Origin: a virus
IMG/VR virus record: IMGVR_UViG_3300033148_002659
Coordinates: 1 to 20,385 of that record
Strand: one strand, 5' to 3'
Length of the DNA: 20,385 nt
The notes beneath the pieces were generated by a model. It was not told the DNA's origin. It made no database searches and worked only from the letters and a program-made list of their open reading frames with translations. This document shows positions 577-14,592 of the stretch, piece after piece. Position 1 is the stretch's first letter, and each line of letters opens with the position of its first letter. The position numbers and the translations under genes were made by a program.

Positions 577-604
577 TTGACTTTTTGAAAAGCTGTGTTA
601 TAAT
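577..604 (+). promoter_or_regulatory. sigma70-like promoter of the cargo operon
   Basis: TTGACT (577-582), a 16-base spacer, then TATAAT (599-604). The ATG at 642 lies about 30 bases after the expected start site and has the SD AAAGGA. It stands back to back with the leftward promoter, the two -35 elements being 59 bases apart. It probably drives the whole set of overlapping genes to 7135, since no terminator is visible between them. Confidence 0.85.
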
Positions 605-641: not shown

Positions 642-1004
642 ATGAAAGAGCTGTGGAGTTTGGACAAGAGCGCGGTCAAGATTTATGGTGACTATTCCCC
701 ACACCCGGTGATTGTAACCAAAGACGTGTATGAGCATTTTGGCGGGGAAACAGAAAAGGTATTTCATAGTATTCAGGGGATGATGAAAGAAATGCCCCGT
801 CTCCGGTCTTCTGAGTGTCATCCGTTTTCTATGATTGATATAACGTTTGCTGATGAAAATTCTTATAGGGGCACTTCTGGCAGTAATCGCCACTGGAAAT
901 TTGGCACATTGTCCAATTCAAGGGAATTTGTCACGGGTTACTATTATATGTCAGAAGATGGTACTCAGGCAATTTTTAGTGGCGGGACAGTTTGGAGATT
1001 GTAG
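642..1004 (+). CDS. hypothetical protein, 120 aa, first gene of cargo operon
   Basis: The family is not recognised. It is a soluble protein with a central Ser/Asn/Gly-rich stretch and an aromatic GYYYMSEDG segment near the C-terminus, and no membrane segment. The start is firm: an ATG with an AAAGGA SD 6 bases upstream, about 30 bases after a strong promoter. The last 13 bases overlap the start of the helicase gene, so the two are likely translationally coupled. Being first after the promoter, it should be among the best expressed proteins of the cluster. Confidence 0.75.
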   Translation: MKELWSLDKSAVKIYGDYSPHPVIVTKDVYEHFGGETEKVFHSIQGMMKEMPRLRSSECHPFSMIDITFADENSYRGTSGSNRHWKFGTLSNSREFVTGYYYMSEDGTQAIFSGGTVWRL

Positions 1005-3046
1005 ATACCGTTCTTGTTTATCCAGAAGCCAGTTGTACTAAGTTTATTGTAAAGCTTGGTATGACTGGCAATTTGGCATATGTAAAATTATCTGAGAAAA
1101 ATGACAAATTTACAGAGATTGCCAAGTCTTTGCACTTGCGATGGAATTGGAGTAACTATAGACGTGAACGAATTGTAGGGCCGCTGGCAGGGAGTTTGCA
1201 AGATAGATTGGCGGAAATTGGGGCAACCTTTTTAAGTGAGGGCTTCCCGGTTGAGTTTCCCAATGAAGAGATTCGAGATATAGCCGTTAACCAGCAGTAT
1301 AAACCAGAATGCAGAAGATGGGTAGTGTTAGGTAAGGGGGAGTTTACGGGATGGCTTAGACTATGGTGGGGGTATGGGGAGCTCGATTTTTTTACTAGGG
1401 TTATGATGCTGGGTGGGGCGCGCTATGACAAAAAAGACACCAAGTGTGTTTGTATTCCTATTGAGAATTATGCAGAAGTTGTTGACTTTGCCGGAATGCA
1501 CAATTTTGGAATAGAGCCATTAGCACAATTAGCAATCAATAAGCAACAAGAAAAAGCAAAATCTGCAATGGTACTTGATATACAATTGAAAGATATGGCT
1601 CTTCCAGAATGGAGGAAAGAGTCTTTTCATAATGCAAGTTATACAGTTGGTGCGAACTTGATTGATTATGATTATTTGAAGAGATTTAGTACAATTTCAA
1701 CATTGTATGATTATCAGCAGTCGGCGATTGATAAAACTGCAAATCTGAAAGTCGCTGGGCTGTTCATGGATATGGGGCTTGGAAAGACCCGGTGCGCAAT
1801 TGAGCTTGTGAAGATTAGGCAACAAAGAATCAATCGAGTTGTGTGGATTTGTCCTGTATCGCTAAAAATAACTGCAAGGGAAGAAATTCTTAAACACACT
1901 GATTGTAAAAAAGAAGATATTTATTTGTTTGACAGTAAGACAAAATCTGACAATGTGCCAAAGGCGACTTGGTATATTGTGGGGCTAGAATCGTTTAGCT
2001 CAAGTAATAGAATGGTACTGGCGGCAAATAGTATTATAGATGAAAATACTTTTGTAGTGGTTGATGAATCAAGTTACATCAAGGGCCATTCATCAATTAG
2101 AACAAGGCGCATTACTCAAATGTGCCAACATGCTAAATATCGTTTGATTTTAACGGGCACCCCACTCTCGGAGGGGTATAAAGATTTGTATTCACAAATG
2201 GTGTTTTTAAGCTCTGAGATTTTGCAATATAATTCTTTCTACTCTTTTTCGGCGAATCATTTAGAGTATCATCCAGATTATCCAGGTATGGTGATAAAGG
2301 CGCATAATACGAAGCATCTTGCTTCAAAGATTGAGCCGTACATTTTTCAAATTACAAAAGATGAAGCGTTGGATTTACCTAAGAAGATTTATGAGTCTCG
2401 CTATTGTGGCCTGACAAATGCCCAACGCGAATATTACAACAAGGCAAAACAAGAAATCTTGGTAGAGAGTGATATTCAAGAAAGCTATTTAATTTTTCAG
2501 TTGTTTGGAGCTTTGCAACAAATAGTGTCGGGTTTTTGGAATTATGAGGGGGTGTTGCTTGAAATTGATAATGATAGAATGGATTTGTTGTCAGATGTTA
2601 TTGAGCAAATACCAGAAAGCGAAAGCGTCATTATTTGGTGCAAATATGTGTATAGCGTGCAAAAAATAGCTGACTTGCTGAAAGCTGATAGTGTGTTATA
2701 CTATGGGGGGATTAACGAGAATGAGAGACATAAGAATCTTGAATTGTGGAAAAGCGGAAGGAAGCGGTTTTTAATTGCGACTATGGCGACTGGGGGGCAT
2801 GGGATTGATTTAACTAAAGCTCGATATACAATTTTTTATGAGAATGAGTTCAAATATGCCCATAGAATACAGGCAGAAGATAGAGCGCACCGGATTGGAC
2901 AAGAGCAACGTCCCATTTATATCAGTCTGTATGCCTCTTGCGGCATTGAAAGTAGGATTGAGCGGGCTATTGCCAAAAAGGAGAATGTACTTGCTGGCTT
3001 TAGAAAGGAGTTGAAATGCAAAAAGAACTTAAATTCCCTTGTATGA
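992..3046 (+). CDS. SNF2-family DEAD/DEAH-like helicase
   Basis: A superfamily 2 ATP-dependent DNA helicase or translocase. Visible motifs: Walker A MGLGKT (residues 261-266, Lys265), motif II VVDESS (about 356-361, Asp358-Glu359; DESS rather than DEAH), motif III LTGTP (387-391) and motif VI EDRAHRIGQ (about 629-637), typical of the SNF2 group. The first 200 residues are not helicase; a stretch near residue 145 (GARYDKKDTKCVCIP, then a Tyr-Glu-Val pattern) resembles the HARP-like domain seen before SNF2 cores in SMARCAL1-type and phage proteins. The start is a TTG with a weak GGGA SD, overlapping the previous gene by 13 bases; an ATG at 1061 would remove 23 residues. Likely remodels DNA or displaces DNA-bound proteins; partner unknown. 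Confidence 0.93.
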   Translation: MEIVDTVLVYPEASCTKFIVKLGMTGNLAYVKLSEKNDKFTEIAKSLHLRWNWSNYRRERIVGPLAGSLQDRLAEIGATFLSEGFPVEFPNEEIRDIAVNQQYKPECRRWVVLGKGEFTGWLRLWWGYGELDFFTRVMMLGGARYDKKDTKCVCIPIENYAEVVDFAGMHNFGIEPLAQLAINKQQEKAKSAMVLDIQLKDMALPEWRKESFHNASYTVGANLIDYDYLKRFSTISTLYDYQQSAIDKTANLKVAGLFMDMGLGKTRCAIELVKIRQQRINRVVWICPVSLKITAREEILKHTDCKKEDIYLFDSKTKSDNVPKATWYIVGLESFSSSNRMVLAANSIIDENTFVVVDESSYIKGHSSIRTRRITQMCQHAKYRLILTGTPLSEGYKDLYSQMVFLSSEILQYNSFYSFSANHLEYHPDYPGMVIKAHNTKHLASKIEPYIFQITKDEALDLPKKIYESRYCGLTNAQREYYNKAKQEILVESDIQESYLIFQLFGALQQIVSGFWNYEGVLLEIDNDRMDLLSDVIEQIPESESVIIWCKYVYSVQKIADLLKADSVLYYGGINENERHKNLELWKSGRKRFLIATMATGGHGIDLTKARYTIFYENEFKYAHRIQAEDRAHRIGQEQRPIYISLYASCGIESRIERAIAKKENVLAGFRKELKCKKNLNSLV

Positions 3047-3519
3047 AGCCAGAGTTGGTGCCTCTTTGTAAGGTTGTATGTAATGGCTATAATCCAAACA
3101 ATGTTGCAAAACCAGAAATGGATTTGCTTGCATTGTCAATTGCAGAAGATGGGGTAACAATGCCTGTGGTAGTCTATCACGATATTGAAAATGATAAATA
3201 TATTGTAGTGGATGGGGAACATAGATATACAATTTTGAGAGATGTTTTTCATAGTAATGTTATTCCAGTTTCGATTATTGATAAAAACATTGATGAAAGA
3301 ATAGCTTCTACCATTAGACACAATCGGGCTAGGGGCGTGCATAAAATTATGAGTATGGCGGATATTGTGGCTAGATTAGTGAGGGGTAAGTGGGCAGATG
3401 AAGATATAGCTAGACATCTTGGAATGTCTGTTGAAGAGCTTTTGAGGCTCAAGCAAATTAAGGGCATTGCTCAAATTTTGGCAAATAAGGAGTATGGTAG
3501 AGAATGGATTATCAAATAG
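3016..3519 (+). CDS. ParB/sulfiredoxin-fold protein, IbrB-like
   Basis: A 167-residue protein with the ParB/Srx catalytic-domain pattern: a conserved NxxN-type segment near residues 24-29, VVDGEHRY at 64-71 (the GxHR-type motif) and RHNRARGVH at 101-109 (ParB box II-like). A helix-turn-helix-like segment follows at about 128-150 (EDIARHLGMSVEEL). Some proteins of this fold use CTP or ATP and some are nucleases; which applies here cannot be read off. The ATG has a strong SD (AAAGGAG) and overlaps the helicase by 31 bases. No ParA gene or parS-like repeat is visible, so a partition role is unlikely. Together with the IbrA-like gene at 5298 it recalls the IbrA/IbrB pair first described as regulators in E. 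coli. Confidence 0.85.
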   Translation: MQKELKFPCMKPELVPLCKVVCNGYNPNNVAKPEMDLLALSIAEDGVTMPVVVYHDIENDKYIVVDGEHRYTILRDVFHSNVIPVSIIDKNIDERIASTIRHNRARGVHKIMSMADIVARLVRGKWADEDIARHLGMSVEELLRLKQIKGIAQILANKEYGREWIIK

Positions 3520-4061
3520 TTTTGCGAATTTGTGAAGAGCGGACTAAGTACAGAGGCTATCTTGAGAGTAAAATTGAGGGGCTTCAAATAGTAGAAGATA
3601 CAGACAAAAATGCAATGCACACATTTTTGAACGCGCTTGATTTTGTGGGGGAGAATGCTGCCGTACATATTGAAGATGATATTATTGTAACTGCTGGTTT
3701 TCAGAGCAAGCTTGATTGTGTAATTCAGGATAATTCAGATACAGTAATTCAGTTTTTTAGTATGCGTAAAGATGACCTTTTAATTGGGAGCCGGTTAGAT
3801 TATGGGCGCAAGTTCATGATGTGTCAATGTTTTTATTTGCCGCCAAATTATTCAAAACTTTTGCTAGAATATCATTCCAAATGGGAGAAGAAAGAACAGC
3901 AGCTGCGCTCCGGGTACGATTTGTTAATTGCTGATTTTCTGAAAGCGCGCAAAGAGAAATACTGGATACATGTCCCTAGCCTTGTAGACCATAGGAAGGT
4001 GCGTAGTGCAATAAATAGGAGAAGGTCATCATTTAGACAATCAAAAACATTTGAATTGTAA
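3504..4061 (+). CDS. putative small GT-A glycosyltransferase-like protein
   Basis: A 185-residue protein. Residues 53-60 (AVHIEDDI) match the hydrophobic-strand plus Glu-Asp-Asp pattern with which GT25-like and other GT-A glycosyltransferases bind metal and sugar nucleotide. The C-terminal part has GYDLLIADF (about 137-145), then IHVPSLVDH (155-163), a His-containing segment often seen near the end of such enzymes. The length fits a minimal catalytic domain. It overlaps the ParB-like gene by 16 bases. The acceptor could be a modified DNA base, a protein or a cell-surface sugar; its place in a cluster of DNA-acting genes favours a nucleic acid, but this is inference. The very C-terminus is basic (NRRRSSFRQS). 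Confidence 0.6.
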   Translation: MDYQIVLRICEERTKYRGYLESKIEGLQIVEDTDKNAMHTFLNALDFVGENAAVHIEDDIIVTAGFQSKLDCVIQDNSDTVIQFFSMRKDDLLIGSRLDYGRKFMMCQCFYLPPNYSKLLLEYHSKWEKKEQQLRSGYDLLIADFLKARKEKYWIHVPSLVDHRKVRSAINRRRSSFRQSKTFEL

Positions 4062-4062
4062 G

Positions 4063-4467
4063 ATGATATATAAAATATACGAATCTGACTCTTTTGAGTT
4101 TTGGGGATATACTGGTTGGTTTTTTGCGTCCCGAATTGTCGAAAAAGAGCTTGGGTCAAAAATGCACTATGATAATAATATGACCTGGGTTATTGCAATA
4201 AATAATGATGATTGTGTTGGTATTTCTTGTATACAAACAAAGAAGGGATATGCGCTGTTTAAGCATAGTTACGTGCTTCCATTATATAGAGGGTGTGGTA
4301 TATATAAAGAGTTGGTTGCTAAACGGCTGCAATACGCAAAAGAAAACAATATATCAATTATCAAGACTTATTGCACGGATATGAGTAAGGGTGTTTTGGA
4401 GTTGTTCGGCTTTGTTCAAGGAGGCAATCGGGGGCGGTATAGCACAATGGAGTTAAAAATTGAGTAG
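4063..4467 (+). CDS. GNAT-family N-acetyltransferase
   Basis: A 134-residue protein of about the normal length for a single GNAT domain. Motif A is visible at 71-85: a beta strand (SYVLPLY) followed by RGCGIYKEL, matching the (Q/R)xxGx(G/A) acetyl-CoA pyrophosphate loop, with Tyr81 in place of the usual Gly/Ala. A C-terminal LFGFVQGG segment (about 114-121) matches the common 'YEKLGF' region. The ATG at 4063 lies one base after the stop of the previous gene; an in-frame TTG at 4051 would add four residues, and neither has a good SD, so re-initiation is likely. The substrate is unknown. Some phage GNATs (Mom of phage Mu) modify DNA bases, so a nucleic-acid substrate is possible but not shown. 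Confidence 0.8.
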   Translation: MIYKIYESDSFEFWGYTGWFFASRIVEKELGSKMHYDNNMTWVIAINNDDCVGISCIQTKKGYALFKHSYVLPLYRGCGIYKELVAKRLQYAKENNISIIKTYCTDMSKGVLELFGFVQGGNRGRYSTMELKIE

Positions 4468-5308
4468 CAGGGTGGTGTATTCAACCAATTTTAATGAGAT
4501 TGTGCTATATATTGAAAATATATTGCACTCTTACAAGCATGTATATTATGTTGAATCAAAAAGAAGTCAATTTGCCGATTTGTCAAGAATGCAATTTGGG
4601 GATAAGTTGCATTTTGTTGAATGGGAAAACCTGCTCAAGACCGTCAAATCTTTTAGAGTTGATGCTGATATTGGATTTATTGTGGATGGGGTGTATATAT
4701 CCTCTATACCCGATAGGAATTTAGGGGCCTTGCAACGTGCTTTTGGAGATAAGATAATTTTTGAGAATCATCCATTTGCCTCTAAGTCAGAAGTGTATTA
4801 TTGTTATTTTGCCTATAGCCTGGTAGACAAAACGCTATTGGGATACCCTCACAATTATGCTTTCCGGGACGCAATGGCTAATATTGAATACGATCCTTTC
4901 AATATTGAAATGCTTGCAAGTCATGTGTTTGAAGCAAGTGATGTGTATATACAATCAATTTTTGATATTGATAAAATTCAGTTTGTTCAAATGAACCTGA
5001 GTGATAAAGAACATAAAAAATATCAGGTCTTAAAAAAGAGTTTGTTTGAATCTGAGGTTACGGCGCATTCAATTATTAGCAAGCTGCATAGATTTGTGAA
5101 TAATACAGAATCAATGCAAGCAGTGTGTAACAAGCACTATAATTTGTTATACCCAAATCGTATTTTTGACCAATACAGGAAAGGGTTGCATGCATGTATT
5201 TATTCAGATGCAAAAGTTGATTTGTATTTACTCGCAGAATTCAAAAAATATATAAGTAATGCTAATGAATTTATGCAACATTTATGGGGGTTCTGTAATG
5301 GGCATTAA
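4460..5308 (+). CDS. unknown 282-aa protein of the ParB/IbrA cassette
   Basis: The family is not recognised. The N-terminal half alternates predicted strands and helices (for example VVYSTNFNEIVLYIENIL, then DADIGFIVDGVYIS near residues 73-86), suggesting an alpha/beta fold. The C-terminal half, from about residue 145, looks mostly helical and charged. There are no membrane segments. The TTG start is supported by GGAG seven bases upstream, and the gene overlaps both neighbours (8 and 11 bases). Its fixed place directly before the IbrA-like gene suggests it acts with it, perhaps as a substrate-specificity or adaptor subunit. Confidence 0.75.
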   Translation: MSSRVVYSTNFNEIVLYIENILHSYKHVYYVESKRSQFADLSRMQFGDKLHFVEWENLLKTVKSFRVDADIGFIVDGVYISSIPDRNLGALQRAFGDKIIFENHPFASKSEVYYCYFAYSLVDKTLLGYPHNYAFRDAMANIEYDPFNIEMLASHVFEASDVYIQSIFDIDKIQFVQMNLSDKEHKKYQVLKKSLFESEVTAHSIISKLHRFVNNTESMQAVCNKHYNLLYPNRIFDQYRKGLHACIYSDAKVDLYLLAEFKKYISNANEFMQHLWGFCNGH

Positions 5309-6380
5309 GGTGTTTACTAATAGGAGTTGTTGCGACGCGGCAAAAGAGCGTGTAAAATATGTATTTAACGAATTTGAAAATATAATTGTATCCATTAGTA
5401 GTGGGAAAGATAGCACGGTTTTATATTGGTTAGCAATCCAGGAAGCAATTTTAAGAAATAGGTTTATACGAGTTTTCTTTTTAGACCAAGAAGCAGAGTA
5501 TCAATCATCAATCGAGCTTATCGATCTAATGATGCGACATCCCAATGTTATCCCAGAGTGGTATCAGGTACCTATCAAACTAACAAATGCTTCCAGTTAT
5601 CGGGAAGAGTTTTTGTATGCTTGGGGCATGGGTGAATCGTGGGTTAGAGATAAAAACGAGATTGCTATTCATGAACTAGAAGATGATTATCCTCAACGGT
5701 TTTATGATTTTTTTTATTGGAAAGAATCTATAGAAAACAATACCGCCTTTTTGATTGGATTAAGGGCAGAAGAGTCTCTAAATAGGTTTAGGGCTGTTAC
5801 TAAAAAGGCGGGTTATCAAGATGTATTGTGGTCAACTCAGTCTCATAAAAATGATAGTGCGTATAGATTTTATCCAATTTATGATTGGGGAATGGGGGAC
5901 GTTTGGAAATACATTTATGAAAATGATATTGAGTATAATTCAGTGTATGACAAAATGTTTTCTGCAAATCATAACTACTATAATACAATGCGTGTATCAA
6001 ATTTAATTCATGAAAAGAGCTTCGGGTGTTTGTCAGATTTGCAGAAGTTAGAACCTGATACTTATGCTAGGCTACTTGTAAGATTGAAGGGCGTGCATTG
6101 TGCTGCTAAATATGTTGCAAGGGACGGGGTGTATAATGCGATTGATCTTCCAGATAATTTTGATAACTGGCTTCAATATCGTGATTATTTGTTTTTGTCA
6201 ACTCCGTACACTCACAAGAAGAGGTTTATGAATCGGTTTAATAAGCAACCGCCAGAAGAGTATATTTATCAACAACAAGTTAGGCAATTGTTAATCAATG
6301 ATTGGGAAAATAATACTCCAGTTAAGCGCAAAAAGAATAAGCGGAAAGAGCTTATTGACAAATGGTATTCAATCTTATAG
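5298..6380 (+). CDS. PP-loop ATPase of the PAPS-reductase superfamily, IbrA-like (DUF3440)
   Basis: A 360-residue protein with the ATP-pyrophosphatase PP-loop SISSGKDST at residues 32-40, followed by GLRAEESLNRFR at 154-165, a hallmark of IbrA/DUF3440 proteins, and FYPIYDWGMGDVW at 191-203. The C-terminal 160 residues are the DUF3440-like part and end in a basic KRKKNKRK stretch (about 343-350). Such enzymes adenylylate a substrate or act on PAPS-like nucleotides; the IbrA substrate is not established to my knowledge. The ATG at 5298 is preferred (GGGGG about 8 bases upstream, family-like N-terminus MGIKVF) over an in-frame ATG at 5259, which would extend far into the previous gene. Probable partner: the ParB-like protein at 3016. 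Confidence 0.88.
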   Translation: MGIKVFTNRSCCDAAKERVKYVFNEFENIIVSISSGKDSTVLYWLAIQEAILRNRFIRVFFLDQEAEYQSSIELIDLMMRHPNVIPEWYQVPIKLTNASSYREEFLYAWGMGESWVRDKNEIAIHELEDDYPQRFYDFFYWKESIENNTAFLIGLRAEESLNRFRAVTKKAGYQDVLWSTQSHKNDSAYRFYPIYDWGMGDVWKYIYENDIEYNSVYDKMFSANHNYYNTMRVSNLIHEKSFGCLSDLQKLEPDTYARLLVRLKGVHCAAKYVARDGVYNAIDLPDNFDNWLQYRDYLFLSTPYTHKKRFMNRFNKQPPEEYIYQQQVRQLLINDWENNTPVKRKKNKRKELIDKWYSIL

Positions 6381-6389
6381 GGAGGCGCT

Positions 6390-6758
6390 ATGCCAAAACA
6401 TACGCACCAAGAAGCAATGTCAATTACTATCTTGGATGATCCTCACAAGATTTTTAAGAAGGGTGCAAAGGTTAGCAAAATGTCAATTAGATATGGAATA
6501 GATTCTGGTACTCTGCAAAACGGTTTGCTGATGATGGATGAACCACCAAGAGGCTGCTATTCTGGTACGTGCAAGAAGCTATTGTATTATGAGGGCAAAC
6601 TATACAATATTACGTGCTGTGAGCAACTAGACCCGTCACAATGGATAATTGAGCTAGAGAACAAAAATTACAAAAGAGACAAACTAGAAAGAAGATTTAT
6701 GGTGTTGCTTATGTTTGCAAGGCTCTTGATAAAAAAGGCAGGAATACAACAGCAATGA
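6390..6758 (+). CDS. hypothetical protein, 122 aa
   Basis: The family is not recognised. It is basic with four cysteines in two pairs (CYSGTC near residue 56 and CC near 76), which could bind a metal. The C-terminal third is a basic helix (RRFMVLLMFARLLIKK, about 101-116). It has a strong SD (GGGAGG) 9 bases after the IbrA-like gene and overlaps the deaminase gene by the ATGA tetranucleotide, so it is co-translated with both. Confidence 0.7.
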   Translation: MPKHTHQEAMSITILDDPHKIFKKGAKVSKMSIRYGIDSGTLQNGLLMMDEPPRGCYSGTCKKLLYYEGKLYNITCCEQLDPSQWIIELENKNYKRDKLERRFMVLLMFARLLIKKAGIQQQ

Positions 6759-7135
6759 ATAATCTTTTGAATAAGGGTTTCTTCCGGTTGGCGCGCAATG
6801 CCAGCCTTGATAGTTGTCATCGGGTCAAGGTCGGGGCTGTGGTGGCGATCCACGGGAAGCCAGTAAGTGCTTGTTGTAATATAGACAAAAGCCATCCACT
6901 ATTTACTCAAAGTGAGAAGTGCCAAAGTATTCATGCTGAAATAAAGGCTATTCTATCGGCTAATACCTCAGTTAAGGGAGCCACGGTTTATGTCTATAGA
7001 GAGACTTGTGACGGGTTACCAGCACTAGCAAGACCGTGTAATAGCTGCTATCAGTTTATGAAGAAGCATCACATCAAGCGGGTTTATTATACCACCGGGG
7101 AACGGCCTTATTGGAACGTTGAAAAAATCAAATAA
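6755..7135 (+). CDS. deoxycytidylate/cytidine deaminase-family protein
   Basis: A 126-residue protein with the zinc-dependent deaminase signature: HAE at 60-62 (His ligand and catalytic Glu62) and PCNSC at 94-98 (Cys95 and Cys98 as zinc ligands). The N-terminal helix followed by KVGAVV (25-30) is typical of dCMP deaminase/ComEB-like and RibD-like members. The length is on the short side for dCMP deaminase. The substrate could be dCMP, giving dUMP for thymidylate synthesis, or another nucleotide; in a cassette of modification-like enzymes it might shape a precursor pool. The start is the ATG within an ATGA overlap. It is the last gene of the cargo operon; no clear terminator follows. Confidence 0.85.
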   Translation: MNNLLNKGFFRLARNASLDSCHRVKVGAVVAIHGKPVSACCNIDKSHPLFTQSEKCQSIHAEIKAILSANTSVKGATVYVYRETCDGLPALARPCNSCYQFMKKHHIKRVYYTTGERPYWNVEKIK

Positions 7136-7172: not shown

Positions 7173-7201
7173 TTGACAAAGTTTCTTTAATCTGTTATAC
7201 T
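7173..7201 (+). promoter_or_regulatory. sigma70-like promoter of the 141-aa gene
   Basis: TTGACA (7173-7178), a 17-base spacer, then TATACT (7196-7201). From the -10 onward the sequence through the SD to the ATG is nearly the same as that of the promoter at 577-604, apart from a short deletion and a few substitutions, so the two control regions are probably related by duplication or by common selection. Confidence 0.85.
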
Positions 7202-7681: not shown

Positions 7682-7708
7682 CCGCCCAAGAAATTGGGCG
7701 GGTTTTTT
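7682..7708 (+). terminator. strong rho-independent terminator
   Basis: A perfect 8-bp stem CCGCCCAA/TTGGGCGG (7682-7689 with 7694-7701) with a GAAA tetraloop, followed by G and six T. It closes the 141-aa gene and separates the cargo genes from the tail operon. Confidence 0.95.
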
Positions 7709-8399: not shown

Positions 8400-8814
8400 C
8401 AATGCTTTATGGTTTTTTGAAGAGGGCATGAAAGATTTTGTTGACTTGGTACATACCGACTTTCTACTTACTGTTAAGACCTGGAAAACCAAGCCTGTAT
8501 TTCAGAAAACTGTGAAGGATGCTCGAAAGGCTATTAAGGGGCAAGTCTCAACTGATAATGATATTTATAGGTATGTCAGTGCGGGAACGAAAGTGAGATA
8601 TGCCACTATGTCAATGGATTTTGCGGCGAAAACTAGACCGGGAAGTATTTCTAGTGGGAGTGGGCGTGGTGGTGTATTATTTGTGAATAAGAAATATCCA
8701 AGACCGGGGATCGAGGCAAGAAAATTTGACAAACAAATTAAGGATAGAAGAAAAGGGGCGTTCGTGTTAATTATGGAAACTAGATTAGTGCAAATAGCGG
8801 AGGCAATGCAATGA
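8347..8814 (+). CDS. HK97 gp10-like minor tail / tail-completion protein
   Basis: A 155-residue protein, the usual length for this group, with an N-terminal helix, a central segment DIYRYVSAGTKVRYATMS (about 72-89), a Gly/Ser-rich loop (98-110) and KKYPRPGIEARKFDKQIKD (114-132), as in proteins that join the head-tail connector to the tail tube. The position immediately before the major tail protein supports this. The start is uncertain: GTG at 8347 has a CCGAGG SD six bases upstream but overlaps the previous gene by 53 bases; an ATG at 8428 would give a shorter protein, with its SD too close. It ends in an ATGA overlap with the next gene. Confidence 0.7.
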   Translation: MGLKAKTPHQLAYQQIFSNALWFFEEGMKDFVDLVHTDFLLTVKTWKTKPVFQKTVKDARKAIKGQVSTDNDIYRYVSAGTKVRYATMSMDFAAKTRPGSISSGSGRGGVLFVNKKYPRPGIEARKFDKQIKDRRKGAFVLIMETRLVQIAEAMQ

Positions 8815-10280
8815 CAGGTGAAATTCATTTTGATGCTGGGATGACGGCTCTTTTCGCTCAACCAGGCGGGGCCGGGAAAGATATAGTGTATTTGGGATGT
8901 CACGATGTAGAAAGTATTGATGAGCCGCTTGGTGATTATACCCCTAGATTTTGTCCTGACCCAAGCGGGACTAATAGATGGCTTACCGTAGGTGAAGAGC
9001 ATGCGCCGCCAGAAGCCGTTACATTTGATATTACAGAAGATGTGACTGGCGCTCTATCTATTTTGAGAGAGCAAAAATGCCCAATTCCAATATATATCAA
9101 TTTAGCATGCGGTACGCGGCGCGATGTGTTTGTGGGTGCTGTCAAAACATTTATTGCCGACGTGCGTAAAATTACTAGCAGAACGATTAACAATCTCTTG
9201 ATGCGAGAAAGTAGTGAGCGGATGGAGGCAACCTATTCTTTAGCGGCGGCACCACCGCTAATTGAGATACGTAGCCTAACAGCGGTTACGCTAGAAGAAA
9301 GTGAAACAGAGACTCTTAATGACATTAGTTTTTGCAGTGACCAAAGATGTGCGGGTGTTTGCGGGGACGAATCAGAACTTTGTGAGGTTGGTTTTGTATC
9401 AGCAAGCGCGGGCACGGCGGCGGCGGCAAATATTCTAGGCACTACAAATAGTGGCGTGGATTGGGCATCAACCGCGACTCAGCCTTTTGCAATTGTAGAG
9501 GATGTTGTTAGTTCAACTTGTTTTGATATTGACAAAGACACTTCCAGATGGCTTGTAGTACGGGGTACAGAGGTTGCGCCCGCTAACCCAGTAGAAATCG
9601 CATATAGCGACGACTCCGGGGCGACTTGGGCGCTTGTAGACGTTGAGGCGGCGGATACCCGTTTTGCAAATGATAGCGGCGCGCTATGGTCATTGGATAG
9701 CCGTCATATTTGGCTAGTTGCGACTGAGGGGTATGTCTTCTTTTCTAGTGACGGCGGATTGACTTGGGCACCTCAAACAGAAGGTGACGTGACCGCCGAA
9801 GATATGAACGCGGTTCATTTTATCAATCAAAACGTTGGTGCTATTGCAGCAGATAATGGAATTGTATTGGTAACAGACGACGGCGGGACAACGTGGGCAA
9901 CAACCACAACAGTAGTGACGGGAACGCCAAATGTCTATTGTGTCAAGATTTTTAATGAAAATAAAATATACGTAGGTACAGCAGATGGTCATGTTTATGT
10001 GACCTTTGATGGGGGTGTTACTTGGGAGTCACAAGTTCAGGTATTGGCAGGGGCCGTGAATGATATTGATTTTTCTAATGAGTTTGTTTTGTGGGCGGTA
10101 ATTGATACAGCGGCACCGGTGGGAGCGGTTTATCGAACTAAAAACGGCGGCACTGATTGGGAAAGCATCACGACTCCTACAAATACAGGGTTAAATGCAA
10201 TTTATGCGTGTAACTCAAATACAGCATATGCAGTAGGCAGCGATGCTGGCGGGGCATTTATCACAAAGGTATATGGTTAA
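8811..10280 (+). CDS. major tail tube protein fused to an Asp-box beta-propeller
   Basis: Residues 1 to about 170 look like a phage tail tube subunit by composition and position (between the gp10-like gene and the chaperone/tape measure). A linker with four cysteines follows (174, 180, 184, 190). From about 205 to the end there are six Asp-box-type motifs (S/T-x-D/N-x-G-x-T/D-W) at 211-218, 266-273, 312-319, 355-362, 398-405 and 443-450, spaced 43-55 residues apart. This is the pattern of YCF48/sialidase-type beta-propellers, one motif per blade. At 489 residues it is about twice the usual tube protein; the extra domain should project from the tail surface and may bind glycans or host structures. 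No catalytic sialidase residues are recognisable. Confidence 0.8.
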   Translation: MTGEIHFDAGMTALFAQPGGAGKDIVYLGCHDVESIDEPLGDYTPRFCPDPSGTNRWLTVGEEHAPPEAVTFDITEDVTGALSILREQKCPIPIYINLACGTRRDVFVGAVKTFIADVRKITSRTINNLLMRESSERMEATYSLAAAPPLIEIRSLTAVTLEESETETLNDISFCSDQRCAGVCGDESELCEVGFVSASAGTAAAANILGTTNSGVDWASTATQPFAIVEDVVSSTCFDIDKDTSRWLVVRGTEVAPANPVEIAYSDDSGATWALVDVEAADTRFANDSGALWSLDSRHIWLVATEGYVFFSSDGGLTWAPQTEGDVTAEDMNAVHFINQNVGAIAADNGIVLVTDDGGTTWATTTTVVTGTPNVYCVKIFNENKIYVGTADGHVYVTFDGGVTWESQVQVLAGAVNDIDFSNEFVLWAVIDTAAPVGAVYRTKNGGTDWESITTPTNTGLNAIYACNSNTAYAVGSDAGGAFITKVYG

Positions 10281-11112: not shown

Positions 11113-14100
11113 ATGGAAGAAATTGGTCTAGTAGCAATATTTGATGTCTCGCAATTTAGCCGGGGATTAAATCAATATATCCGAGGTGTTAATAGCGCTA
11201 CCAATGAGACAAAGAGCGCTGCTGACTCTGGATTCAGTTTTGCAAGAGTATTTGAGGTGGCGGTTGGGAATTCACTGGCATTTGTTGCCACACAAGTTAT
11301 ACCCCAACTCATTGGGGCGTTTAGTAAACTTGCAACCACAATTGTAGCAGATGCAATTTCTTTTGAGAGCGCGTGGGCCGGGGTCACAAAAACAACCGAT
11401 GGGTTAACAGACAGCACGGGGTATTTAACAGATGCGGGCTTTGAGTTGCAAACTCAATTTAGAGCACTCTCAAAAGAAATCCCCATCACCATCGAAGAGT
11501 TAATGGCTATTGGGGAAATTGGGGGGCAATTAGGAATTCAACAAGATAACCTGATTAGTTTTACTGAAACCGTAGCCGCTTTAGGAGAAACCACCAACCT
11601 AAGCACGGAAGCGGCTGCTATTGGGCTTGCTCAAATGGCAAATGTGATGGGAACAAGCCAGGATGAAATTAGTAATCTTGGCAGTGCTCTTGTTTATTTG
11701 GGGAATAACAGCGCAACCACAGAAAGAGATATTCTAAATTTTGCTCAACGAATAGCCGGGGCCGGGGCTATCGCAGGACTTACAGAAGGTGACGTGCTTG
11801 GCATCGGGGCCGCCTTTAGCAGTGTTGGAGTTAATGCAGAAGCAGGCGGCACGGCGGTTCAAAAGACTATTTTCTCTATGAATGAAGCCGTTTTAACTGG
11901 CGGCGATAAACTTGAAACTTTTGCTGAAACTGCTGGGTTAAGTGCAACTGATTTTGCTCAATTGTGGGAAGTTGACGCTTCTGAGGCGTTCACTATGTTT
12001 GTTGCCGGGCTGGGCAAAAGTGGCGATGAAGCATTGGGCGTCCTGAATGATTTAGAGTTAAAGGATTCGAGATTGCAGCAAGCATTTTTGTCACTAGCTC
12101 AAAATAGTGATATATTAAATGACTCAATCTATAATGCGAATGATGCGTTTGCAGAGAATACAGCATTGCAAACAGAGGCAGAACAAAGATACAGAACAAC
12201 CGCATCTCAGATGCAATTGATGAAAAATAACATTAGGGATGTTGGAATTGAAATGGGTTCTGCTCTGCTGCCAGCGATTAACGATTTTATAAGCGCAATC
12301 ATTCCTTTAGTCCAACAATACGGGCCGCAATTGCGCAAGTTTTTTGTTGAAATCGGGGAATTAGCATTGCAAGTAGTTGACATTTTTGCAAAATTCGCCA
12401 GCGGCGACATATCAGGCGGGTTTGAGTCGCTTGGAATAAGCTTTGAAACCGTGACTAGCGTTTTTGAGAAGGTCAAAGAAGTCGTTGGAATAGCAGTCGA
12501 TTTCTTCATGACTGACATTCTCCCACGGCTACAAGAATTTGCAAATAACATGATACCTGCTTTTGAGTACGTGCGTGATGAAGGTATTAAGATTTTTGAG
12601 GCATTTGTAGCAAATATTGGGCCTATATGGGAAGGTGTCAAGAAAATATTTATTGGGCTAACTGACTTTCTTACAGGATTTATTGAAATTGTTAGCGGTA
12701 TGTTTACAGGCGATTTTGGGTTAATTTGGGAAGGCGTTAAAACAATGCTTTCTGGGGTATGGACATTCATCATCGGTATTTTTCAAGCCGCCTTTGCGAC
12801 CATTGCCTCATTGCTGGGTGTTAAAATGACCGCTCTTCAAACAACTATTTCTCAAATATGGGAGATTATCAAAGCGGTATTCATTATTTCTTGGACTGCT
12901 ATCACAAATTGGTTAAGCACGGCGTGGGATAACATTGTAAAATTTACAGGAACCGCGCTTGAAAATATGTCTAATGGCGTCTCTAATGCAGTGCAATCTA
13001 TTAGGCAATTTTTTGTTAATGGTTTTAATGGCATTGCGAGTTTTATTTCTAATGTGCTTGATTCAATTGGGCAATTCTTTACAAAGGGATTTGAAAACAT
13101 TTTCAATATTACTTCTAGCACACTGCAATCAATATTTGCCTTTATTACAACAACTTTTGGGAATGTTAAAACGTTCATACAAAATACGTGGAGTGTTGTC
13201 GCTTCTATTACAAGTTCTGTATGGAATACTATTATATCTGGCATAACTGTTGCTTTGGCTTTTCTTACAACGGCTTTTGGAAATATTAAGACGTTCATAC
13301 AAAATACATGGGACACTATCGCTTCTGTTACGGGCTCTGTTTGGAGCGCTATCGTGTCTGGCATAGCTGCTGCCATAACATTTGTAAAGAATGTCTTGGC
13401 AGTTGCGCTAGGCGCAATTCTAGCATTAGTTACTGGCGATATGGAAAGTTTTAACCAAATTATTACGGCGGCATGGACAATCATTAAAGATTTCATTACC
13501 AATACAGTTAACAATATACTCACAGTTATTATTACTGTGTTTAATAATGTCAAAGATACAGTTATTGCAAATATTACAGAATTGGTTAATGCAACTATTG
13601 CTCTATTTATTGCCTTTGGAAACATGGTTGTCAACAATATCACAGAATTTGTGAATGCTACTATTGCCTTATTTGTTGCGCTTGGAAATATGATTGTCAA
13701 TAATATTACAACTTTTGTTAATGCTTCGGTGGCTCTGTTCATTGCCTTTAAGAATATGGCGATTAACAATATCACAATCTTTGTAAATGCAACAGTTGCA
13801 TTATTTGTTGCGCTTGGAAATATGATTGTGGCAAATATTACAACTTTTGTTAATGCTTCGGTGGCTCTATTTGTAGCATTTAAGAATATGGTTGTCAATA
13901 ATGTCACGACTTTTGTCAACGCAACCATTGCTTTATTTGTTGCTCTTGGCAATATGATTGTCAATAATATGACAGAATTTGTTAATGCTTCAATCGCTTT
14001 ATTCAATGTGCTAAAAGCAGAACTGCCCAGGATTGTTACAAATTTAGCCAGAGCGGTTGTAACAAAATTCAATGAAATAAAGGATAAGGTCACTAATGCT

Positions 14101-14592
14101 TTAGTCAATCTTGCATTAGCCGTGTCAGGAAAAATGCGAGATATAAAAGATTTTATTGTCGAAGGGATAGAAGATGCAATAGATTTTCTTAAAAGTATTG
14201 ACCTTGCTGAAATTGGGGCCAACTTAATCAAGGGCTTGGCAAAAGGCATTTCTAGTGCCGCATCTGCTGTCGGCGACGCAATTGAAAATGCCGTACAAGG
14301 CGCAATTGACAATGCCAAAAGCATTTTGGGGATTGACTCCCCGTCAAAAGTATTTGCTAGTATAGGAATGGACACTATGATTGGTATGCAAAAGGGTGTT
14401 AATCTTGGGGCTATGCTTCCAGAACGGGCCGTAAGTAATGTAGTGAATACTATGACAACGCAATCAAACAGTACAATTATCAATAATACTTACAATAATC
14501 AGAATAGTGTTAATTTTGCGGGTGGTGTATCTTCCGGGGCGCAAAGAAGCGCGTTCTTTAACGTGATTTCTGCAATGGAGTCTGTCCAATGA
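11113..14592 (+). CDS. tail tape measure protein (TP901 family)
   Basis: A 1159-residue protein that sets tail length and is threaded through the tube. The N-terminal region (about 80-330) carries the TP901 core pattern (ESAWAGVTKTTDG, then GEIGGQLGIQ, AALGETTNLS, GLAQMANVMG, and GGTAVQKTIFSMNEAV). Long hydrophobic helices follow. Residues 677-756 are two 40-residue repeats, and 821-974 are seven 22-residue repeats. Near the C-terminus, GIDSPSKVFASIGMDTMIGM (about 1076-1095) is typical of tape measure C-ends. With about 0.15 nm per residue, as known for other phages, the tail would be near 170 nm. It starts immediately after the chaperone frame with a weak SD, implying re-initiation, and ends in an ATGA overlap. 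Confidence 0.95.
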   Translation: MEEIGLVAIFDVSQFSRGLNQYIRGVNSATNETKSAADSGFSFARVFEVAVGNSLAFVATQVIPQLIGAFSKLATTIVADAISFESAWAGVTKTTDGLTDSTGYLTDAGFELQTQFRALSKEIPITIEELMAIGEIGGQLGIQQDNLISFTETVAALGETTNLSTEAAAIGLAQMANVMGTSQDEISNLGSALVYLGNNSATTERDILNFAQRIAGAGAIAGLTEGDVLGIGAAFSSVGVNAEAGGTAVQKTIFSMNEAVLTGGDKLETFAETAGLSATDFAQLWEVDASEAFTMFVAGLGKSGDEALGVLNDLELKDSRLQQAFLSLAQNSDILNDSIYNANDAFAENTALQTEAEQRYRTTASQMQLMKNNIRDVGIEMGSALLPAINDFISAIIPLVQQYGPQLRKFFVEIGELALQVVDIFAKFASGDISGGFESLGISFETVTSVFEKVKEVVGIAVDFFMTDILPRLQEFANNMIPAFEYVRDEGIKIFEAFVANIGPIWEGVKKIFIGLTDFLTGFIEIVSGMFTGDFGLIWEGVKTMLSGVWTFIIGIFQAAFATIASLLGVKMTALQTTISQIWEIIKAVFIISWTAITNWLSTAWDNIVKFTGTALENMSNGVSNAVQSIRQFFVNGFNGIASFISNVLDSIGQFFTKGFENIFNITSSTLQSIFAFITTTFGNVKTFIQNTWSVVASITSSVWNTIISGITVALAFLTTAFGNIKTFIQNTWDTIASVTGSVWSAIVSGIAAAITFVKNVLAVALGAILALVTGDMESFNQIITAAWTIIKDFITNTVNNILTVIITVFNNVKDTVIANITELVNATIALFIAFGNMVVNNITEFVNATIALFVALGNMIVNNITTFVNASVALFIAFKNMAINNITIFVNATVALFVALGNMIVANITTFVNASVALFVAFKNMVVNNVTTFVNATIALFVALGNMIVNNMTEFVNASIALFNVLKAELPRIVTNLARAVVTKFNEIKDKVTNALVNLALAVSGKMRDIKDFIVEGIEDAIDFLKSIDLAEIGANLIKGLAKGISSAASAVGDAIENAVQGAIDNAKSILGIDSPSKVFASIGMDTMIGMQKGVNLGAMLPERAVSNVVNTMTTQSNSTIINNTYNNQNSVNFAGGVSSGAQRSAFFNVISAMESVQ
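13141..13380 (+). repeat. two tandem 120-bp (40-aa) repeats in the tape measure gene
   Basis: Copies at 13141-13260 and 13261-13380, in frame. Both encode an F-(I/L)-T-T-(T/A)-FGN-(V/I)-KTFIQNTW core, followed by a similar hydrophobic half with SVW and ISG or VSG. The DNA is similar but diverged at many third positions, so the duplication is not recent. Confidence 0.85.
13573..14034 (+). repeat. seven tandem 66-bp (22-aa) repeats in the tape measure gene
   Basis: Seven in-frame units with no gaps, residues 821-842, 843-864, 865-886, 887-908, 909-930, 931-952 and 953-974. The consensus is (I/V/M)-T-x-(F/L)-V-N-A-(T/S)-(I/V)-A-L-F, then a hydrophobic half with N-M and ending in N. Units 3+4 and 5+6 are most alike as 132-bp pairs (GFN/GLG-type alternating with FKNM-type), which points to duplication of a pair. 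Twenty-two is two hendecads (11-residue helical repeats). Confidence 0.95.

Follow-up and report, generated by a model that had tools for sequence, protein, structure and literature searches.

A widespread phage cassette centred on IbrA and IbrB, with a predicted pseudo-SNF2 protein and interchangeable transferases, as a candidate pathway of DNA hypermodification

The operon described here represents one form of a phage cassette that is widespread and has a conserved gene set, with the PP-loop ATPase IbrA and the ParB-like protein IbrB as its core. It comprises nine open reading frames on the + strand, spanning positions 642-7135 of the contig IMGVR_UViG_3300033148_002659, and the whole stretch of 20,385 nucleotides that we analysed is referred to as the window. 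A coherent unit of nucleotide-activating and decorating enzymes is conserved across the relatives of this operon, and we consider it probable, at roughly 60%, that the IbrA/IbrB cassette serves to hypermodify (decorate) a nucleotide of the phage's own DNA, by a chemistry that we infer. An earlier note, made from the sequence alone, had suggested a nucleic-acid modification; this is the best-supported reading, while the likeness to phosphorothioation that the note had also drawn did not hold. What is new is the assignment of the 282-aa protein of the operon (X282) as a pseudo-SNF2, a GT-A glycosyltransferase family tied to IbrA, and the swapping of decorating genes in fixed slots beside the terminase.

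Operon organization and the IbrA-IbrB core

The nine overlapping or near-touching genes listed in the earlier note are all present; seven of their eight junctions are overlaps of 4-31 bp and one is a gap of 9 bp. The overlap at the 5' junction of IbrA becomes 50 bp if the start is placed at 5259. The family calls (SNF2, ParB-like, GNAT, PP-loop DUF3440 and deaminase) are upheld by profile matches. In the intergenic gap before the operon lies a sigma-70-like promoter on the + strand (577..604; TTGACT-16-TATAAT, with a TG before the -10), which matches the consensus at 11 of 12 positions, and a divergent promoter at 517-490 matches it at 12 of 12. Since the next strong + strand promoter is found downstream of the operon, at 7173-7201, and is followed by an intrinsic terminator at 7682-7701, the nine genes are compatible with a single transcription unit.

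The IbrA-like PP-loop ATPase (5301..6380, + strand, with an alternative upstream ATG at 5259) contains the motifs SSGKDS and GLRAEESLNR, and its Pfam matches to PAPS_reduct (4.3e-16) and DUF3440 (4.2e-8) are both above the cut-off, so that it carries the PP-loop, the GxRxxES motif and the DUF3440 domain of its family. Among 90 IbrA sequences, the residues S, G, K, D and S of the SGGKDS pattern are invariant, and no cysteine column is conserved above about half of them. An identity as CysH PAPS reductase was rejected on scores of 22-36 bits against cut-offs of 154-254 and the lack of the conserved catalytic C-terminal cysteine.

Membership of the PAPS-reductase superfamily and weak matches to the DndC and BrxP models would favour phosphorothioation of the DNA backbone by a DndC-like IbrA. 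We regard this as highly improbable, given a score of 26 bits against the DndC model cut-off of 290, the lack of conserved cysteines, and the absence of DndA, DndD and DndE among the window genes. The Dnd/Ssp phosphorothioation systems also combine a PP-loop ATPase with a ParB-superfamily protein (DndC, DndB; PMC10853773), and the window differs from them on these same points.

The IbrB-like protein (3016..3519, + strand) has the ParB/Srx fold and a DGEHRY box; it matches phrog_2159 at 4e-56, and its PF02195 match falls just below the cut-off. A partition ParB was set aside, with 27 bits against the 58 required by TIGR00180 and no ParA found in the scan of the window genes. The gene lies three genes upstream of IbrA, so that the pair proposed by the earlier note does share an operon but is not adjacent, the glycosyltransferase, GNAT and 282-aa genes standing between its members. 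The note had let its hypothesis depend on whether the two families occur together more often than by chance, and their association is far beyond chance: IbrA homologues are present in 215 and IbrB homologues in 220 of 50,697 phage records, with nearly identical tallies of host genera, and an IbrB-like gene lies within 3 kb of IbrA in 75 of the 78 IMG/VR contigs surveyed, the contig end coming first in the three exceptions. In practically every viral contig the two families are neighbours. In GC-rich loci, the IbrA and IbrB genes were checked by stop-to-stop frames.

IbrA and IbrB of E. coli and their phage homologues (phrog_2302 and phrog_2159) are likewise a PP-loop plus DUF3440 protein and a tightly linked ParB-like partner, and the matches to them are full-length. 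In the E. coli phage PhiR5_2 the two genes stand together alone, whereas in the window SNF2, pseudo-SNF2, GT-A and GNAT genes are interleaved with them.

The SNF2 motor and its predicted inactive relative

The SNF2 DNA translocase/helicase (992..3046, + strand; PF00176 1.8e-20, phrog_62 3e-103) looks active, as it keeps Walker A (MGLGKT), the DE-box (VVDES), motif III (LTGTP) and motif VI (QAEDRAHRIGQ) intact. Its homologues adjoin IbrAB in Flavobacterium, Streptococcus, Lactobacillus and Fusobacterium phages and in many contigs. Its best PADLOC scores are for ZorD and for DpdE of the 7-deazaguanine DNA-modification system, in which a ParB-like protein and an SNF2 helicase serve base modification; the DpdA (TGT-fold) transglycosylase of that system was not found in the window, which has a PP-loop ATPase instead.

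The gene at 4460..5308 (+ strand), whose product the earlier note had left as unknown, is real, and its 282-aa product is identified in this analysis as a dead SNF2 ATPase, or pseudo-helicase, according to family profiles and a structure model, which alone bring out the fold. The predicted structure has two RecA lobes, and its best Foldseek matches are SNF2 ATPases; the comparison with CSB (VIA) gives a Z of 16.1 over 264 residues, covering both lobes, and the profile-profile comparison with the phage SNF2 family gives an E of 3e-6. Neither a GxGK[ST] Walker A nor an arginine-finger motif VI is found in any of the 19 X282 members. A single-sequence pattern search of viral contigs and a phmmer search of PDB sequences with X282 returned no match. 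Pattern scans relied on closer subsets and on single proteins, the broad X282 and glycosyltransferase alignments being too diverse for this purpose. With X282 as the sole query, we recovered 26 new contigs with DNA beyond X282, and IbrA is directly downstream in all 26.

Interchangeable transferases and the position of the cassette

The putative GT-A-fold glycosyltransferase (3504..4061, + strand) carries an EDD motif, an acidic motif of the DxD type in which one Asp is invariant, and a C-terminal PSLVDH...S. Its model (pLDDT 91.7) aligns with GlcNAc-transferase I at a Z of 14.6 over 170 residues, a structural comparison that bears out the GT-A-like fold named by the earlier note. As the sole query, it retrieved 19 contigs, 18 of them new, and IbrA is in the cassette in all. 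The GNAT acyltransferase (4051..4467, + strand; RGCGIY, PF00583 7.9e-7) belongs to a family found beside IbrA in 18 loci.

In the relatives, GNAT, GT-A, SAM-methyltransferase, DNA-methylase-like and oxygenase-like (HxD...H) genes replace one another in fixed positions; the DNA-methylase-like ones have only Pfam matches below the cut-off. Cultured Streptococcus, Lactobacillus and Flavobacterium phages have SNF2-IbrAB without GT or GNAT, which indicates that the decorating genes are optional. The large terminase subunit gene (TerL) lies at most 3 kb downstream of the cassette in 23 of the 78 contigs, and also in Bernardo, Laroye and FP_Taranis; none was seen in the 20-kb window. In the cultured Microbacterium phages Hendrix and Leaf, the shared features are the GT family, GNAT and IbrA, then IbrB and a terminase (in Hendrix, GT-GT-MTase-GNAT-IbrA / IbrB-ParB-ParB-HTH-terminase). 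Unlike the window, they have two additional ParBs as well as an N-domain SAM methyltransferase, and neither SNF2 nor X282 was detected in the stretches read.

The glycosyltransferase and GNAT could instead act on virion protein. Actinophages glycosylate virion proteins, tail genes lie 3' of the operon in the window (one tail protein, used as query, has no match in phage records), and many IbrAB phages lack both transferases, all of which would suit a module that decorates the virion or the cell surface and travels with IbrAB, leaving the action on DNA to SNF2, IbrB, X282 and IbrA alone. We think such a module quite unlikely, as all members of the GT family that we found are in IbrA cassettes (18 of 18 new contigs; in the 50,697 phage records, Hendrix only) and the gene is interleaved between IbrB and IbrA.

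To our knowledge, the only published activity of IbrAB is that it activates expression of the eib genes in E. coli. This, together with the annotation of the family in many phages as "co-activator of prophage gene expression" and the fact that cassettes often open the late (packaging) region, could mean that IbrA and IbrB modify RNA polymerase, tRNA or a promoter region to turn on late genes, with GT and GNAT modifying host proteins. A role as regulator nevertheless seems unlikely to us: it leaves unexplained both the SNF2 pair and the exchange of GT, SAM-methyltransferase, DNA-methylase-like and oxygenase-like genes in fixed slots, and the E. coli phenotype could itself result from DNA modification.

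We did not retain the deaminase-fold protein (6755..7135, + strand; cytidine/dCMP type, HAE and PCNSC, PF00383 1.6e-12) as a candidate for a base-converting step: the proteins related to it are ordinary dCMP deaminases of phages, and no homologue occurs in the IbrA loci scanned, so that a role in nucleotide metabolism, or as an accessory, is likely. Family and homologue searches were empty for the 120-aa protein (642..1004, + strand), which has no homologue in the relatives' cassettes, and for the 122-aa protein (6390..6758, + strand), which has no match in phage records either and is absent from the relatives' cassettes scanned. As these two genes and the deaminase gene were not found in the relatives' cassettes, their membership in the pathway is unsupported, and this includes the accessory step in the operon that the earlier note had given to the deaminase.

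Proposed DNA hypermodification and its relation to known systems

In the hypermodification pathway that we favour, the SNF2 motor would track on phage DNA and bring IbrA, with the dead SNF2 X282 as a possible scaffold or DNA clamp. IbrB may bind DNA or NTP and choose or open the target. IbrA would then adenylate a base oxygen or another oxyanion at the expense of ATP, and the adenylated oxygen would be replaced or extended, as in CysD, FAD synthase and TilS, with no sulphur relay; the PP-loop and the absence of a conserved cysteine in IbrA are observed, and the substrate is proposed. The new group might be capped with a sugar by the GT-A enzyme and an acyl group by the GNAT, in an order and on a target that are conjectural. 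The resulting mark would shield packaged DNA from host restriction, which agrees with the terminase-adjacent position of the cassette in relatives. The literature contains, as far as we found, no measured modified nucleoside for any cassette carrier, and this counts against hypermodification.

Phage PP-loop systems were reportedly predicted by Iyer, Aravind and colleagues in 2013 to make lysidine-like pyrimidines in DNA; the likeness lies in the general idea of phage PP-loop ATPases modifying DNA bases. The same logic of adding a handle and then decorating it is found in the hypermodification of phage DNA by CmoX/CmoY through carboxymethylcytosine, where a ParBc gene is often nearby and CmoX, a cytosine carboxymethyltransferase, works with an AMP-forming ligase (PMC12783734); neither a CmoX-type enzyme nor such a ligase was seen in the window.

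If the cassette does make a new DNA modification, it would account for a common but unread form of phage counter-defence and would add to the reagents of DNA chemistry. The proposal also brings together, as one testable pathway, genes that in hundreds of phages are annotated as "co-activator", "PAPS reductase", "ParB partition" or "hypothetical", and Hendrix offers a cultured phage for it.

Several loci of the relatives have integrases nearby or are carried by a plasmid, and in about eleven relatives type IV CRISPR csf genes lie beside or inside X282-IbrA-IbrB operons; no csf gene (csf2/csf3 effectors) matched in the window. These settings, and the resemblance of the SNF2 protein to ZorD, DpdE and DrmD, might point to a prophage-borne weapon against other phages or superinfection, in which the SNF2, ParB and PP-loop proteins sense or damage competitor DNA. 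We judge this very improbable, as no nuclease domain was found in the cassette and phage genomes commonly carry the gene set next to their packaging genes.

A bolder form of the hypermodification reading, which we put forward only tentatively, is that SNF2, X282, IbrB and IbrA form a motor-driven machine for a new, cysteine-independent base modification that GT and GNAT decorate, and that in the branch where X282-IbrA-IbrB is operonic with type IV-B csf genes, the csf complexes and their CysH-like protein may guide or share the chemistry. A new DNA modification made by the cassette would give a first concrete lead on the role of type IV-B CRISPR modules with that protein.

In phiFN37, SNF2-IbrA-IbrB adjoins a queuine-transglycosylase and a second ParB, company that, like the PADLOC scores of SNF2, speaks for an action on DNA. 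No CRISPR array turned up close to csf genes in a simple scan, other than repeats at a 60-bp spacing in locus L034.

The operon and the linkage of IbrA to IbrB

In the 20,385-bp virus record, nine plus-strand ORFs (642-7135), joined by overlaps or by one 9-bp gap, form an operon with a sigma-70-like promoter upstream (577-604, 11 of 12 consensus positions) and, past its end, a new promoter (7173-7201) and a terminator (7682-7701). Its G+C content (0.34-0.41) is lower than that of most of the downstream structural genes, and minor tail protein matches are found among the genes downstream. Family scans confirmed the earlier annotation of the SNF2 (992-3046), ParB-like (IbrB, 3016-3519), GNAT (4051-4467), PP-loop plus DUF3440 (IbrA, 5301-6380) and deaminase (6755-7135) genes; the deaminase and the 120-aa (642-1004) and 122-aa (6390-6758) genes had no counterpart among the relatives searched. 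No terminase was seen in the window, itself a fragment. Further downstream, a 489-aa protein (8811-10280) without a PHROG match carries BNR/YCF48-like repeats (DGGTTWAT, DGGVTWES), and the tape-measure-like protein that follows (13000-14200) shows, in translation, about ten near-repeats of 'FVNATIALFVALGNMIVNNIT'.

The earlier note called the ParB-like and IbrA-like genes a pair; in the window they stand three genes apart. The co-occurrence that it expected in other genomes is borne out, since tblastn found IbrA in 215 and IbrB in 220 of 50,697 phage records, with nearly equal tallies by genus (Flavobacterium 90/90, Mycobacterium 55/54, Streptococcus 21/21, Arthrobacter 12/12, Bacillus 6/6, Microbacterium 5/5, Rhizobium 4/4). 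The two genes adjoin or lie one to three genes apart in the 15 neighbourhoods inspected, from unrelated hosts. An IbrA profile search returned 80 viral contigs, and 75 of the 78 IMG/VR loci scored have a same-strand IbrB-like gene within 3 kb; in the three loci without one (L021, L040, L091), the contig stops within about 1.3 kb. Neither these nor the later contig counts represent independent events, as many of the contigs are relatives of one another.

Six loci (L023, L153, L159, L171, L172, L173) carry two different IbrA genes, and mostly two IbrB genes, which suggests two substrates or sequence specificities. In Mycobacterium phage Gaia, IbrB forms a fusion with an ectoine-synthase-like cupin (L008 7275-8174; PF06339, 1.3e-32), perhaps another decorating enzyme; in Pseudoalteromonas phage XCL1123 the cupin gene adjoins IbrB (L014 5604-6534). 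Large ORFs between or beside the cassette genes (L002 3905-6846 and 9270-10358; L021; L035 6612-8489) look, by sequence, like HNH/homing or IscB-like endonucleases.

X282 and the type IV CRISPR genes

The 282-aa protein (X282, 4460-5308), unknown in the earlier note, is now identified as a pseudo-SNF2 ATPase. Profile-profile comparison showed a link with the SNF2 family of phages (E 3e-6, probability 88%), and the top Foldseek hits of its AlphaFold2 model (mean pLDDT 79, pTM 0.79) are SNF2 ATPases; the model aligns to CSB residues 522-989 over 264 of 282 residues (Z 16.1, rmsd 3.4) and thus covers both lobes. All 6 SNF2 relatives have GxGK[ST] and motif VI; none of the 19 X282 members has either. 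The gene often comes immediately after an intact SNF2 gene. In 18 of 78 loci the gene just before IbrA belongs to the X282 family, and IbrA is next in all 26 new contigs with DNA past X282, obtained by two reverse searches using closer X282 subsets.

The most surprising lead, yet one outside the window, is a link to type IV CRISPR (csf) genes: the effector genes csf2 and csf3 occur within about 10 kb of X282-IbrA-IbrB, beside or inside the operon, in 11 loci (L019, L028, L033, L034, L147, L155, L168, L169, whose contig stops after X282, L178, the archaeal plasmid L124 and the Sorangium MAG L126). L155 also carries csf1 and cas11, and a simple scan recognised no CRISPR array near the csf genes of these loci. 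Several contain a separate CysH-like gene; the type IV-B CysH-like protein has been described as lacking the catalytic cysteine and as having an unknown role (PMC8175902).

Probable IbrA chemistry, the glycosyltransferase and the proposed working

All PP-loop motif residues of IbrA are conserved among 90 sequences, in which no cysteine column exceeds about half. The DndC, CysH and CysD models score it far under their cut-offs; together with the lack of a conserved cysteine, this excludes CysH or DndC membership and makes a cysteine sulphur relay unlikely. Among proteins of solved structure, those nearest to IbrA in sequence are FAD synthase, CysD and PAPS reductase. Adenylation of an oxygen is the common chemistry of the family (CysD, FAD synthase, TilS), and by analogy it remains the candidate option for IbrA. 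Iyer, Aravind and colleagues reportedly predicted, in 2013, lysidine-like DNA bases made by phage PP-loop ATPases.

The best structural matches of the glycosyltransferase (GT, 3504-4061; model pLDDT 91.7) are all GT-A: GlcNAc-transferase I (Z 14.6), mimivirus R655 (Z 14.4) and collagen galactosyltransferase (Z 14.2). A search with GT only gave 19 contigs, 18 of them previously unseen, and IbrA lies within the cassette in all 19, usually in the order N-domain/SAM-methyltransferase, GT, one of GNAT, HxD...H or DNA-methylase-like, IbrA, IbrB, second ParB, TerS, TerL. Among cultured phages GT matches only Hendrix, whose genome ends with GT, GT, methyltransferase, GNAT and IbrA and starts with IbrB, ParB, ParB, HTH and terminase. 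The small HxD...H protein of cluster c29 (3161-3700 in L064, also in relatives), which takes the place of GNAT between GT and IbrA, has no Pfam match and is possibly a 2OG-Fe(II) oxygenase. A stand-alone domain of about 90 aa (AKTMP..PH.Y; L043 8810-9097 and many relatives), also without a Pfam match, is elsewhere the N-terminus of the cassette SAM methyltransferase.

The analysis shows the classes and folds of the enzymes, the linkage of the genes and, among relatives, a position near terminase. In the working that we propose, SNF2 would serve as the DNA motor and X282 as the clamp, with IbrB as a selector binding DNA/NTP, IbrA as the activating enzyme, and GT and GNAT as decorators; we infer DNA as the substrate, the order of the steps and a protective role. 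A literature search found no reported nucleoside analysis for any cassette carrier. Analogies lend support to the proposed pathway. It resembles that of the CmoX phages in its handle-and-decorate logic and ParBc association (PMC12783734). The window SNF2 matches DpdE of the Dpd system, and in Fusobacterium phage phiFN37 a transglycosylase and a ParB adjoin SNF2-IbrAB: IbrA-IbrB-SNF2 is followed by second ParB-like, queuine tRNA-ribosyltransferase-like and queuosine-precursor transporter genes (L009 5989-12945), possibly two DNA-modification modules side by side.
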